Assembly: GCF_031085295.1 (NCBI RefSeq)
Contig: NZ_JAVFWO010000005.1
Coordinates: 1 to 64,000, forward strand
Source of the DNA: Microbacterium psychrotolerans
Lineage (GTDB): Bacteria; Actinomycetota; Actinomycetes; Actinomycetales; Microbacteriaceae
Direction of reading: 5' to 3'
Length of the DNA: 64,000 bases
Below the pieces are notes generated by a model that searched no databases, was not told the DNA's origin, and saw only the letters and a program-made list of their open reading frames with translations. This document shows, piece by piece, positions 35,534 to 57,144 of this stretch. The position numbers and the translations under genes were made by a program. Position 1 is the first letter of the stretch. Each line of letters opens with the position of its first letter.

Positions 35534-36079
35534 TCAGGTCGCCGGCGCGGCCGGCTCGCCGTTCAGCGTGAAGAGCAGCTCGAGCGACTCGCCGGGTTCG
35601 AGCTCGAGGGTCGACAATCCCTCCTCGGCATAGGCCCACTCGCCGTCCGCAGGCTTGATCCAGATCGACCAGTACGCGAACGCGGCGGGCATCGACTCGC
35701 ACGTCTCGAAGTAGTCCGTGCCGTCCGCGGCGGGGATCGCGACGTCTTCCGCGGGCACGCCGTTGACGCGGCACACGACCTCGTCGCCGTACTCGTCGGT
35801 GCCCTCGGTCGTCACATTCACGAGGGTGAGGGCGTCGGCCGCGGCGAGCGTCTCGTCTGTGCCGATGCACCATTCCTTGCTGTCGCCGTCCTCCAGGCTC
35901 GACGCGTCCACGGCGACGGTGATGCCTTCGTCGTCCCCGCAGGCGCTGTCGAGGATCGCGAGGGTCTTGGTCTCCGCGGGCGTGGGGGTGGCGTCGGGCG
36001 CGCCGGTGCAGGCGACGAGGGTGAAGAGCAGGGCAGCGGATGCCGCGGCGGCCGCCACGGTGCGAAGAGTCGAGGTCAC
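35534..36079 (-). CDS. lipoprotein with transcobalamin-like (DUF4430-type) domain
   Basis: A 181-residue secreted lipoprotein with lipobox LVAC (Cys24), followed by a Thr/Pro-rich spacer. The mature part ends with VVCRVNGVPAED, FAYWSIWIKPADGEWAY and LELEPGESLELLF. This pattern of a Cys-containing NGVPA turn and a YWS-W strand is typical of the transcobalamin-like/DUF4430 fold found with actinobacterial ECF importers. Several paired Cys fit disulfides. It probably binds ligand or docks it at the ECF chain encoded 1 bp downstream. GTG 36079 has TAGCCT six bases upstream. Confidence 0.8.
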   Translation of the reverse strand: MTSTLRTVAAAAASAALLFTLVACTGAPDATPTPAETKTLAILDSACGDDEGITVAVDASSLEDGDSKEWCIGTDETLAAADALTLVNVTTEGTDEYGDEVVCRVNGVPAEDVAIPAADGTDYFETCESMPAAFAYWSIWIKPADGEWAYAEEGLSTLELEPGESLELLFTLNGEPAAPAT

Positions 36080-36091
36080 CGATCCAGGCTA
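36080..36091 (-). promoter_or_regulatory. leaderless -10 box TAGCCT for lipoprotein-ECF operon
   Basis: On the minus strand TAGCCT (36086-36091) ends six bases before GTG 36079. Confidence 0.55.
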
Positions 36092-36143
36092 GTTGGCGGG
36101 CAGTGGTGTCCGGTGGCGGATGACGCCCGCCGACGCGCCGCCG

Positions 36144-36155
36144 TAGGCTGGCCGG
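36144..36155 (+). promoter_or_regulatory. leaderless -10 box TAGGCT for menB
   Basis: TAGGCT (36144-36149) ends six bases before GTG 36156. Confidence 0.6.
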
Positions 36156-37076
<921 letters not shown>

Positions 37077-47299: not shown

Positions 47300-47641
47300 T
47301 CAGGCGCGGGCGTCCGGTGCGTCGGACTCGGGTGCGGCCGGCGCGGTGGGCGTCGCGGCATCCGGCCCAGCGGGCGTGGCGGCGTCGGCGGCGGCATCCT
47401 CGGCCTGCTCGTCGGTGACCGCGCTGCGCGACCGGGCACGGCGCTCGGCGAGCCCTGCCGTCGCATCCTCGAGCGGCTTACGCAGGAAGAGCACCGACAG
47501 GCTCAGGCCGATGAGCGCTGCGAAGATGGCGGCGAGCCAGTAGTACTCCTGCATGATCGGGAACAGCATCAGGATGCCGAACGGCACGAGGAACGCCAGC
47601 AGCCGCAGCACCGAGTAGACGATGGCCGAGCGCGCTTTCAC
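47300..47641 (-). CDS. DUF4229 domain membrane protein
   Basis: A 113-residue protein of the actinobacterial DUF4229 family. Two helices (about 8-28 and 36-52) are followed by LRKPLEDATAGLAERRARSR and an acidic, Ala/Pro-rich tail. Function unknown; the family is often found close to menaquinone genes in actinobacteria, as here. GTG 47641 has TAGGAT six bases upstream on its strand. Convergent with the GH1-like gene. Confidence 0.85.
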   Translation of the reverse strand: MKARSAIVYSVLRLLAFLVPFGILMLFPIMQEYYWLAAIFAALIGLSLSVLFLRKPLEDATAGLAERRARSRSAVTDEQAEDAAADAATPAGPDAATPTAPAAPESDAPDARA

Positions 47642-47653
47642 CCGTCCATCCTA
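47642..47653 (-). promoter_or_regulatory. leaderless -10 box TAGGAT for DUF4229 gene
   Basis: On the minus strand TAGGAT (47648-47653) ends six bases before GTG 47641. Confidence 0.6.
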
Positions 47654-47730
47654 CGTTCGCCCCGCCGGCCGGTTCGGCGACGGTTGCGTCACGGAGCGAC
47701 CGCGCACGCCCACGCCGGGCCCCGCCCGCC

Positions 47731-47742
47731 TAGGATGGGAAG
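47731..47742 (+). promoter_or_regulatory. leaderless -10 box TAGGAT for PLDc_N gene
   Basis: TAGGAT (47731-47736) ends six bases before ATG 47743. It is the divergent partner of the DUF4229 box, 77 bp away. Confidence 0.6.
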
Positions 47743-48237
47743 ATGCCTCGGGTGCTGTTGATACTGGCCCTGGTGGCGACCGCGTTCTGGGTCTTCACCA
47801 TCGTCGATTGCGCGGTCCAGCCCCCGAGCCGCCACCGCGGTGTGAGCAAGCCCGTTTGGATCCTCATCGTCGTCCTCCTGCCGGTCCTCGGCGGCCTTCT
47901 CTGGCTCGTCGTCGGACGCGTGCGGGCATCGACGGTCGCCGCTCGCCGCGCGCCGGACGACGACCCCGAGTTCCTCGGTCGCATCGGCACGATCAGCGAT
48001 CAGGACGAGCGCATCCGCCGCCTCGAAGAGGAGCTGGCGCAGCTCGACGCCGAGAGCGACGACCCACGCTGGAGCCCTCCGCTGGGGCCGGCGGCATCCG
48101 ACGACACCACTGCTCCGGGCGGAACGGCCGCCGCAGGCGGCACGGCCGCGCCGGGCACCCCGCCGCAGCCGAAGCCCCCGATCCGGCCCGCCGAGGGCGA
48201 TGACGACGCCCGCGGCCAGCGCGGGGCCATCGGCTGA
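47743..48237 (+). CDS. PLDc N-terminal domain membrane protein
   Basis: A 164-residue protein. Two helices (about 3-24 and 38-58) match the phospholipase-D-nuclease N-terminal (PLDc_N) domain, with FWVFTIVDCAVQ and PVWILIVVLLPVLGG. A charged helix with DQDERIRRLEEELAQLDAES follows, then a low-complexity Gly/Ala/Pro tail. No nuclease domain is present. It lies 1 bp upstream of the menD start, so the two are co-transcribed. Function unknown. Confidence 0.85.
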   Translation: MPRVLLILALVATAFWVFTIVDCAVQPPSRHRGVSKPVWILIVVLLPVLGGLLWLVVGRVRASTVAARRAPDDDPEFLGRIGTISDQDERIRRLEEELAQLDAESDDPRWSPPLGPAASDDTTAPGGTAAAGGTAAPGTPPQPKPPIRPAEGDDDARGQRGAIG

Positions 48238-54367: not shown

Positions 54368-55675
54368 TCAGGCGAGCGCGTCGACGATCGGCCGGAACTT
54401 CACACGCGTCTCGAGCAGCTCCGTCTCGGGGTTGCTCTGCGCGACGATGCCGGCGCCGGCGTGGGCCACCACGGGAATGGTGTCGCGGTCGGCCGCTTCC
54501 TCCGGCGCCGGTTCGTGAGCCGGTCGGGGTGTCGCGCCGATCTGCGCGCAGCGCAGGGCGATGGCCCACTCGCCGTTCCCGTCGCCGTCGACCCACCCGA
54601 CCGGACCGGCGTACCGGCGGCGGTCGAACGGCTCGAGCCGGCGGATGAGGTCGACTGCGGCATCCCGCGGCGTCCCCGCGACGGCCGCCGTCGGGTGCAG
54701 CGCCGCCACCAGGTCGAGCGCCGAGGCGTGGTCGGCGAGGTCGCCCGCGACATCCGTCGCCAGATGCCAGAGGTTCGGCAGCTTGAGCGTGAAGGGCTCG
54801 GGATCGGCGCTCAGGTGGCTCACGTGCGGGCCGAGCGTCGCAAGAACGCTCTGCACGGCGTAGCGGTGCTCGTCGAGGTCCTTCCCGCTGTGCGCGAGGG
54901 AGGTGGATGCCTCGGTGTCATCGTGCGCGTCGGTGCCGCGGGGGATCGTCCCCGCCAGCACGCGTGCGGTCACGACGCCGCGCGAGGCCGTCACGAGGGT
55001 CTCGGGGCTGGCGCCGATGAGGCCATCGACGGCGAAGGTCCAGGTGTCGGGGTAGTCGTCGGCCAGGGCGCGGACAAGCCTGCGCAGGTCCGCGCCGGCG
55101 GGGATCGTGCCGACGAGATCGCGGGCGAGCACCACCTTCTCGAGTTCGCCGCGGACGATCGCGTCCACGGCCTGCCGTACGGCGGACTGATACCCAGCGG
55201 GGTCGAGCGTGCCGGGGCCGAGGGTCGCCGACCAGTAGGGGCCGTACGGCGTCGGCTCGACGACGGGGTCCGGAAGCTCGGTGTCGGCCGGGCGCACGCG
55301 GGTCACCCATGACCGCCCGCGATGACGACCGACGACCGTCTGCGGGATCACGAGGCGGCTCGTGCCCGAAGAGCGGTCGTCGAAGACGAACGTGCCGAAG
55401 GCGACGAGACCCGTGCCGGGCAGTCCCACCGGATCGTCGACGTCAGCCGCCTCGGCGATCCGACGCCACGTATCGGCCGGAGTGACAGGGTCCGGGCCCC
55501 AAGTGCTCTGCGGTCCCCGCTCGTACCCGCCGACGTTTCCGATGCCGACGATGCCGTCGCCGCGGCGCAGCCACGCGAGCGGCTCATCGGGCGAGGCGTA
55601 CGTGAGGAGGTCGTCGACGTGCTCGATCTCGCGGGTCTCGACCACCAGCGCGGGTGGTCGGTGCGCAGATGTCAC
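54368..55675 (-). CDS. menF: isochorismate synthase MenF
   Basis: A 435-residue chorismate-binding enzyme making isochorismate for menaquinone. Conserved pieces are VLARDL (with the catalytic-base Lys upstream in GELEKVVLAR), IGASPETLV near 225, VLAGTIPRG near 240, and the Mg-site regions ALHPTAAVAGTPRDAA near 323 and HAGAGIV near 410. GTG 55675 is preceded by TAGGCT-GGAGGG, so it has both a leaderless box and a possible ribosome site. It could also serve siderophore synthesis, but the menaquinone neighbours favour MenF. Confidence 0.93.
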   Translation of the reverse strand: MTSAHRPPALVVETREIEHVDDLLTYASPDEPLAWLRRGDGIVGIGNVGGYERGPQSTWGPDPVTPADTWRRIAEAADVDDPVGLPGTGLVAFGTFVFDDRSSGTSRLVIPQTVVGRHRGRSWVTRVRPADTELPDPVVEPTPYGPYWSATLGPGTLDPAGYQSAVRQAVDAIVRGELEKVVLARDLVGTIPAGADLRRLVRALADDYPDTWTFAVDGLIGASPETLVTASRGVVTARVLAGTIPRGTDAHDDTEASTSLAHSGKDLDEHRYAVQSVLATLGPHVSHLSADPEPFTLKLPNLWHLATDVAGDLADHASALDLVAALHPTAAVAGTPRDAAVDLIRRLEPFDRRRYAGPVGWVDGDGNGEWAIALRCAQIGATPRPAHEPAPEEAADRDTIPVVAHAGAGIVAQSNPETELLETRVKFRPIVDALA

Positions 55676-55697
55676 CCCTCCAGCCTAGACTCGCGGG
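55676..55697. promoter_or_regulatory. bidirectional promoter of menF and DUF402 gene
   Basis: AGCCTAGACT (55682-55691) contains TAGGCT on the minus strand (55682-55687) and TAGACT on the plus strand (55686-55691), sharing one TA step. Each box ends exactly six bases from its GTG start (55675 minus, 55698 plus). Confidence 0.65.
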
Positions 55698-56351
55698 GTG
55701 ACCGCCGACGCCCACCAACAGCTCCTTCCCGGCGCCGCCGACCGCCCTGTGCCCGGTGCACCGCTGCAGTTCCGCTGGACGAAGTGGGACACGAGCGCCC
55801 ACTGGGTGAACGACGGCATCTACCTCGGCAGCGACCGATGGGGCGACTGGATCGGGCAGCCCGACGGCTGGCGCAACGTCCGCCCGGGGCTGGAGTTCCT
55901 CGCCGACGGCCCGAACGTGACGCTTCTCCCGCCGAGCGGGGACTACGCGATGACCGTCCACGGCTCACCCCGCCGCGTGCGCACCTACATCGACATCGCG
56001 TGGGACATCCGGTGGGAGAATCGCGAGCCGCGCGGGATCGACATGGACCTCGACGTCGTGAAGGCCATCGACGGCCGCGGGCTCTTCATCGACGATCGCG
56101 ACGAGTGGGACGAGCATCGCGTCGTCTACGGCTACCCGCTCGACCTCGTAGAGAGGCTGGAGGCGCTCGCGGTCGACCTCGAGCGTCGCGTCGCCGCGGC
56201 CGAAGCGCCCTTCGACGACGCGACGCCCGACAGCTGGCTCGCGCGCCTCTCCGCGTACGACGCCGTCGCACCCCCGCCGCCGGTGTCCTTCGCCGGTGCC
56301 GCGGGACCGGCCGAGACCTCCGGCCCCGCTCGCCCGGGCAGCGCCGCCTAG
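55698..56351 (+). CDS. DUF402 domain-containing protein
   Basis: A 217-residue protein with the DUF402 beta-barrel: RVRTYIDIAWDIRWENR, then DMDLDVVKAIDGRGLFIDDRDE near 110-135, including the acidic metal-binding cluster, then a helical C-terminus. Relatives include nucleoside phosphatases and RNA-binding barrels; the specific activity is unknown. GTG 55698 is leaderless. The end is 10 bp before the menG start and carries its -10 box. Confidence 0.87.
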   Translation: MTADAHQQLLPGAADRPVPGAPLQFRWTKWDTSAHWVNDGIYLGSDRWGDWIGQPDGWRNVRPGLEFLADGPNVTLLPPSGDYAMTVHGSPRRVRTYIDIAWDIRWENREPRGIDMDLDVVKAIDGRGLFIDDRDEWDEHRVVYGYPLDLVERLEALAVDLERRVAAAEAPFDDATPDSWLARLSAYDAVAPPPPVSFAGAAGPAETSGPARPGSAA

Positions 56352-56361
56352 ACTCGAAGCC
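56349..56361 (+). promoter_or_regulatory. leaderless -10 box TAGACT for menG
   Basis: TAGACT (56349-56354) overlaps the stop of the DUF402 gene and ends seven bases before GTG 56362. Confidence 0.6.
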
Positions 56362-57144
56362 GTGGCAGCTCACCCCTCCGATCACGAGCCGAATCGCGCA
56401 GACCTGCACAAGGATCCCTCGCGCGTGAGCGGGATGTTCGACCAGGTCGCCGCCGGCTACGACCGCACCAACACCGTGCTCAGCATGGGCAACGACCGGT
56501 TCTGGCGGGCTGCCACCACGCGTGCCGTCGACCCTCGTCCCGGCCAGCGCATCCTCGACCTCGCCGCCGGCACCGGCGCGTCCAGCGTCGCGCTCGCCGG
56601 GCGCGGCGCCGACGTCGTCGCGGCCGACTTCTCGCCCGGCATGATCGCCGAGGGCGAGCGCCGCCACGGGGCCGGTGCGCCGGGCGGCGGCATCCGGAAT
56701 CTGTCATTCGTGCAGGCAGACGCGACCGCGCTCCCGTTCGGCGACGACGAGTTCGACACCGTCACGATGTCGTTCGGGCTGCGCAACGTCAACGAGCCCA
56801 AGAAGGCGCTGCGCGAGTTGCTGCGCGTCACGAAGCCCGCAGGGCGGCTCGTGATCTGCGAGTTCTCGCACCCGCCGTCGAAGGCCTTCAACGGCCTGTA
56901 CCGCTTCTACAACGACCGTGTGCTGCCGGTCGTCGCGAAGACAGTGAGCTCGAACGCCGAGGCGTACGACTACCTGAACGAGTCGATCCGCGACTGGCCG
57001 GACCAGCACACGCTGGCGGCGTGGATCCGTGAGGCGGGGTGGACCGACGTCGCCCACCGCAACCTGTCGATGGGCATCGTCGCGCTGCACCGAGCCACGA
57101 AGCCCGCGGCAGGCGTGGGACGAGTGCAAACGCGCCCCCGGTAG
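56362..57144 (+). CDS. menG: demethylmenaquinone methyltransferase MenG/UbiE
   Basis: A 260-residue SAM-dependent C-methyltransferase that performs the last step of menaquinone synthesis. SAM motif I is ILDLAAGTGASS (about 64-75). The UbiE signatures FDQVAAGYDRTN (about 26-37) and ALRELLRVTKPAGRLVICEF (about 152-171) are present, as is SMGIVALHRA at the end. GTG 56362 is chosen by the box spacing and the usual N-terminal length; the frame is open upstream. The polyprenyl synthase gene follows 9 bp later. Confidence 0.95.
   Translation: MAAHPSDHEPNRADLHKDPSRVSGMFDQVAAGYDRTNTVLSMGNDRFWRAATTRAVDPRPGQRILDLAAGTGASSVALAGRGADVVAADFSPGMIAEGERRHGAGAPGGGIRNLSFVQADATALPFGDDEFDTVTMSFGLRNVNEPKKALRELLRVTKPAGRLVICEFSHPPSKAFNGLYRFYNDRVLPVVAKTVSSNAEAYDYLNESIRDWPDQHTLAAWIREAGWTDVAHRNLSMGIVALHRATKPAAGVGRVQTRPR

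Follow-up and report, generated by a model that had tools for sequence, protein, structure and literature searches.

The start codons of two divergent genes, menF on the minus strand and a DUF402 gene on the plus strand, are separated by 22 bp in the window (the whole stretch of DNA that was analysed, 64,000 nucleotides long), which raises the question of how two genes could be transcribed in opposite directions from so little DNA, and whether doing so would tie their expression together. The initial annotation had read two -10 boxes in this gap, TAGGCT facing menF and TAGACT facing the DUF402 gene, overlapping by TA and each 6 bp from its GTG, and we were able to confirm this reading to the base (Table 1). 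On both sides the first T of TANNNT lies 12 bp upstream of the start codon, and on both sides that codon is GTG. The pair had also been described as the most compact divergent arrangement in the window, which was borne out in a crude gene call with 11 divergent pairs; the sole closer pair, a -54 bp overlap of ORFs read from their first possible starts, is probably an artefact. The divergent pairs at 35534-36156 and 47300-47743 have TANNNT boxes at leaderless spacing on both sides, there as separate boxes across gaps of 76 and 101 bp.

Profile searches identified the product of the minus-strand gene (P0001) as an isochorismate synthase (TIGR00543, 229.3 bits, cut-off 224.75), which also passes the Pfam profile PF00425, and the product of the plus-strand gene (P0002) as a DUF402 protein (PF04167, 29.3 bits, cut-off 23.9). 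The gene next after DUF402, beginning at 56362, is the demethylmenaquinone methyltransferase gene menG (NF001241, 327.4 bits, cut-off 327). Here the TAG stop of the DUF402 gene forms the first three bases of a menG -10 box, TAGACT (56349-56354), 7 bp before the GTG at 56362; a menG box at 5-8 bp is found in 76 of 79 loci, and the stop coincides with it in 41 of the 79, the window's own included. On the minus strand, GGAGGG (55676..55681) directly adjoins the menF GTG, and because it lies too near to that codon we judge it not to be a Shine-Dalgarno site. No Shine-Dalgarno-like sequence was seen by eye in the DUF402 spacer (55692..55697).

Table 1. Positions of the genes and promoter elements at the menF/DUF402 locus, numbered from the first letter of the window.
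Feature	Position	Strand	Details and basis
menF-type isochorismate synthase gene	54368..55675	-	GTG 55675-55673 (CAC 55673-55675); ORF and profile matches
DUF402 gene	55698..56351	+	GTG 55698-55700, TAG stop 56349-56351; ORF and PF04167
Pseudo-palindrome AGCCTAGACT	55682-55691	both	sequence
menF -10 box TAGGCT	55682..55687 (read 55687-55682)	-	ends 6 bp from GTG; sequence and conservation
DUF402 -10 box TAGACT	55686..55691	+	ends 6 bp from GTG; sequence and conservation
TA step common to both -10 boxes	55686..55687	.	T55686/A55687; sequence
Conserved 12-bp core AGCCTAGACTCG	55682..55693	.	alignment of 29 shared-form loci
Spacer from menF -10 to start, plus-strand CCCTCC	55676..55681	-	sequence
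Spacer from DUF402 -10 to start, CGCGGG	55692..55697	+	sequence
Predicted leaderless menF start site, first base of GTG	55675	-	from -10 spacing
Predicted leaderless DUF402 start site	55698	+	from -10 spacing; 23 bp from the menF one

Of 149 genomes of the genus (Microbacterium), 132 carry the DUF402 gene, whereas sampling across the bacterial family yielded this DUF402 family in only 2 of 85 genera (3 of 120 genomes). We took 130 of the 132 loci, leaving out two at contig ends; 12 of the 130 have no menF in the stretch examined, and the other 118 have menF divergent to DUF402. Conservation in relatives had been suggested as a check on the two boxes, and the boxes are indeed kept: TANNNT lies 6 or 7 bp before an in-frame menF start in 118/118 loci and 5-8 bp before the DUF402 start in 116/118, the two exceptions (L024 and L027) having CAGACT instead, although kinship among the genomes inflates such counts. 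Control windows at 12-15, 16-19, 20-23, 30-33, and 40-43 bp gave 0-5 matches in 118 loci for DUF402 and 2-21 for menF, and with control counts this low we take the boxes to be real and at leaderless spacing. A Microbacterium-like DUF402 gene was also met on a contig titled Stenotrophomonas maltophilia (L202), where it is probably assembly contamination.

A TA common to both boxes, hereafter the shared form, occurs in 29 of the 118 loci; the two starts are 23 bp apart in 22 of these, 24 bp apart in 5, and 25 bp apart in 2. The arrangement is split in 87 loci, where the starts stand 35-356 bp apart (median 68); since both genes there have a box of their own, these loci amount to a natural test that each gene needs one, and since boxes without a common TA occur in 89 of the 118 loci, sharing of the TA is not required. 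An overlapping set, made up of 77 named loci and the window's own (3 of 81 DUF402 loci lacked menF), has the shared form in 31 of 78 loci, of which 23 have an implied start distance of 23 bp, 7 of 24 bp, and 1 of 25 bp; its named loci were the best 80 of 183 candidates and thus lean to near relatives. M. hibisci (L169), M. jejuense (L207), and M. kyungheense (L173) are among the named species with the shared form. In this set the menF -10 box is found in 108/108 loci, 30 of which are without DUF402, and in 15 loci from other genera it is found in 15, with menG in 13 and the split arrangement usual. When the 29 shared-form sequences, all distinct, are aligned, the core AGCCTAGACTCG has 10 invariant columns out of 12, and the other two agree in 28/29; the TA is invariant in 29/29, but the shared form is defined by it. 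The flanks of the core vary: the menF start codon aside, the commonest base of most columns reaches 30-90%. Sequence comparison thus strongly supports the reading of the two boxes as real -10 elements with a TA in common.

As such, we consider it highly probable that the locus holds a bidirectional promoter of the 23-bp class, read by the primary sigma factor and leaderless in both directions. Each strand of the pseudo-palindrome AGCCTAGACT would offer one TANNNT -10 element, with the overlap confined to the central TA, and RNA polymerase, presumably with the primary sigma factor, would bind the site either way round. A TANNNT ending 6 bp before GTG would set the start site on the G of that codon, the menF and DUF402 mRNAs would have their 5' ends on the start codons, at a distance of 23 bp, and both would be translated without a leader. 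What lies upstream of each -10 element would be the first codons of the opposite gene. Only one polymerase could occupy the site at a time, and at low firing rates the two genes need not be coupled. A literature search for start-site data for Microbacterium turned up nothing usable; related Actinobacteria provide the background for these steps. Leaderless genes of actinobacteria have TANNNT about 12 bp upstream (PMC3160421), promoters of M. tuberculosis have TANNNT and no conserved -35 element (PMC3898074), 79% of promoters in M. smegmatis have ANNNT between -13 and -6 (PMC6448022), and in mycobacteria an ATG or GTG at the 5' end is enough for leaderless translation (PMC4633059).

The initial annotation went further and held that two polymerases cannot use both boxes at once, so that expression of the two genes must be competitive. 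The first half of this stands, since PMC12825309 states for bidirectional promoters as a class that opposing polymerases are mutually exclusive. The second half is unsupported, though competition is possible, because the same paper reports that at five tested E. coli promoters basal activity was too low for substantial competition, which arises on strong activation. Carried to its end, the claim would make the 22 bp a competitive switch, with menF and DUF402 regulated against each other through polymerase exclusion, and the repression of one direction by strong activation of the other, as described for E. coli in that source, gives it a precedent. Nevertheless, we regard such a switch as unlikely, with so little basal competition at the five E. 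coli promoters and with the boxes unshared in 89/118 loci, so that coupling is not generally kept. Competition between the two directions would, by the same comparison, probably be weak.

A second alternative is that only menF uses the site, with TAGACT as a by-product of its symmetry and DUF402 expressed from elsewhere, e.g., from a promoter inside menF. The presence of the menF box in every locus of the overlapping set, including those without DUF402, agrees with this, as does the occurrence of the symmetric motif beside menF where no DUF402 start follows. The form A...TAGACTCG is found in this situation in five loci, of which L165 and L241 carry DUF402 and L247, L249, and L252 do not. The looser pattern ANNNTANNNT coincides with the menF box, and no DUF402 start lies at promoter distance from it, in 6 of the 89 non-shared loci of the 118, and in the overlapping set it does so in 7 of 47 split loci and 6 of 30 DUF402-less loci (two of them from other genera); symmetry is therefore possible without a second gene. 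In a quick tree of menF + menG with 101 rows (10 of 111 rows were left out, and 29 of 98 inner branches are open), however, L247 and L165 are sister to shared-form rows and L249/L252 adjoin one, so that the motif in these four looks like a relic of the shared form; L241 is not beside any such row. Relics were counted here by A...TAGACTCG alone; the looser ANNNTANNNT is found in more of the non-shared loci, some perhaps by chance. The DUF402 gene, moreover, has TANNNT at leaderless spacing in 116/118 loci, even far from the menF box, and use of the site by menF only is in our estimation improbable.

The same design occurs a second time in this genome, where a 22-bp promoter stands between rsmI and a gene for a PMT-family mannosyltransferase (L002, contig 12, 164993-165020). 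The shared pattern at rsmI/PMT is found in 20 of 30 genomes with our own included (19 of 29 relatives), a match having been obtained in 57 of 59 genomes searched and the best 30 taken; the plus-strand start is in the PMT frame in 20/20, and the A, TA, and T are kept as the inner bases vary. At this locus L321 has two TAGACT boxes about 36 bp apart, a split form among fused ones, with the first still symmetric beside rsmI and the second near the PMT start. This second site bears on the idea that a dimeric regulator binds the near-palindrome AGYCTAGRCT, which would then be an operator instead of or besides a promoter. Eight of its 10 positions are self-complementary, and the menF/DUF402 core is more constant than TANNNT needs, the DUF402 box reading TAGACT in 29/29 shared loci vs 27/89 others (the Fisher test of this difference ignores relatedness). 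Against it, rsmI/PMT keeps the geometry with other inner bases, and split loci retain a single box at the promoter position, which makes an operator a very unlikely explanation of the symmetry.

As to the role of chance, the 64-kb window contains 8 copies of ANNNTANNNT where shuffled sequence predicts 12.0, and the bare motif is therefore not significant. When a start codon is also required 6 bp away on each side, the 4.54-Mb genome has 2 sites, compared with an expectation of about 0.8 from a background of 0.174 per Mb; this rate (22.5 in 129.2 Mb) is a family average over mixed base compositions, and the excess is weak on its own. One genome cannot decide the matter, and the significance of the motif comes instead from its conservation in relatives. 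In 100 genomes of the family the 23-bp pattern was found 238 times where about 52 were expected, and the 18-bp pattern 110 times where the expectation was about 26. Both classes are thus roughly fourfold enriched over a background from 40 sampled stretches, of which only the rate per Mb was used, applied to the 298 Mb that the 100 genomes comprise. The own ratios of the 40 genomes (5.6 and 5.0) are inflated, since these were picked among genomes with matches and not randomly. A reversed-pattern control in the 100 genomes gave 238 vs 69 for the 23-bp pattern and 110 vs 117, i.e., no excess, for the 18-bp pattern; we set it aside in favor of the sampled stretches, judging it biased because reversal makes TA into AT, which is 2.4 times commoner (25,999 AT vs 10,972 TA in the 40 stretches). 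Several pattern matches open short frames only, meaning that not all matches are gene pairs. With 6-bp spacers, simple arithmetic shows that among overlaps of two TANNNT elements only the 18- and 23-bp registers need four fixed bases rather than six. That the two boxes at menF/DUF402 are juxtaposed by chance, with no function in common, would fit the genome count and the lack of enrichment in the window but is scarcely credible with the core kept in the genus while its flanks vary and a second conserved site at rsmI/PMT.

On the menF + menG tree the shared and separate states need 10 changes, and in a two-rate model the gain rate is 0, all changes are losses, and the DUF402-bearing genus starts out in the shared form (lnL -25.38 vs -27.30 for one rate; -24.43 vs -26.58 with relics counted as shared). 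The case for the shared form being ancestral in the DUF402-bearing genus is thus marginal. Tentatively, the promoter may have been captured by DUF402 at the menF -10 element, the fused form being ancestral and repeatedly split and the design recurring elsewhere, though we would give this history somewhat less than even weight. The start of the narrowly spread DUF402 gene would have come to lie 12 bp past the TA of an existing menF -10 element, and one added T would convert ANNNTA to a two-way promoter. The 22-bp doubly leaderless design would have arisen also at rsmI/PMT and, in other genera, at dut/DUF3093 and DUF3000/hydrolase, where the pattern lies between the two genes (one locus each checked by Pfam). 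If true, this would be a cheap and recurrent way to equip new divergent genes with promoters in these Actinobacteria. At the present locus, GCCTAGACTCG is present in two exact copies, one at either end of the DUF402 gene (55683-55693 and 56346-56356), and each copy includes a -10 box. Loss of DUF402 by recombination between such copies was considered and rejected, as no simple single-copy junction was seen by eye in 15 DUF402-less loci of the genus.

Whatever the history of the promoter, the genus provides a natural series at one locus, where fused promoters occur along with split and relic ones, and a fused promoter at a second locus as well. This series would allow one to test whether a common -10 element couples two genes and how new genes gain promoters. 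If the start sites are as predicted, the 23-bp bidirectional class also fits gene pairs without any leader.

Judged from its sequence and conservation, the menF/DUF402 promoter most likely belongs to the known bidirectional promoters, as a well-conserved, leaderless example from the Actinobacteria, with no new mechanism. That class was reportedly founded by a 2021 paper. No earlier report of leaderless bidirectional promoters with this pairing was found in the open literature, as far as the accessible portions of it go. The locus resembles the bacterial symmetric -10 bidirectional promoters (PMC12825309, PMC10268837) in having overlapping -10 elements on opposite strands. For E. coli, PMC12825309 gives 18 bp as the commonest start distance, with 10 and 23 bp also common; if both starts are leaderless, the 23 bp of menF/DUF402 would be among these common distances, unlike the commonest 18-bp form. 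Its site between two divergent protein genes is shared with 24% of the E. coli bidirectional promoters in that source. A likely difference from the E. coli class is that both predicted start sites fall on start codons, so that the whole intergenic region would be promoter core. With the actinobacterial leaderless genes (PMC3160421, PMC3898074, PMC4633059) the locus has in common TANNNT, the 6-bp spacing to GTG on both sides, and, by eye, no Shine-Dalgarno sequence at the usual spacing. The usual leaderless promoter serves one gene, whereas those of menF and DUF402 have two base pairs in common. A likeness is found in prpD (Rv1130)/Rv1129c of M. tuberculosis, a divergent pair in which both genes are leaderless (PMC3898074); the same source describes divergent promoters in close juxtaposition as common.
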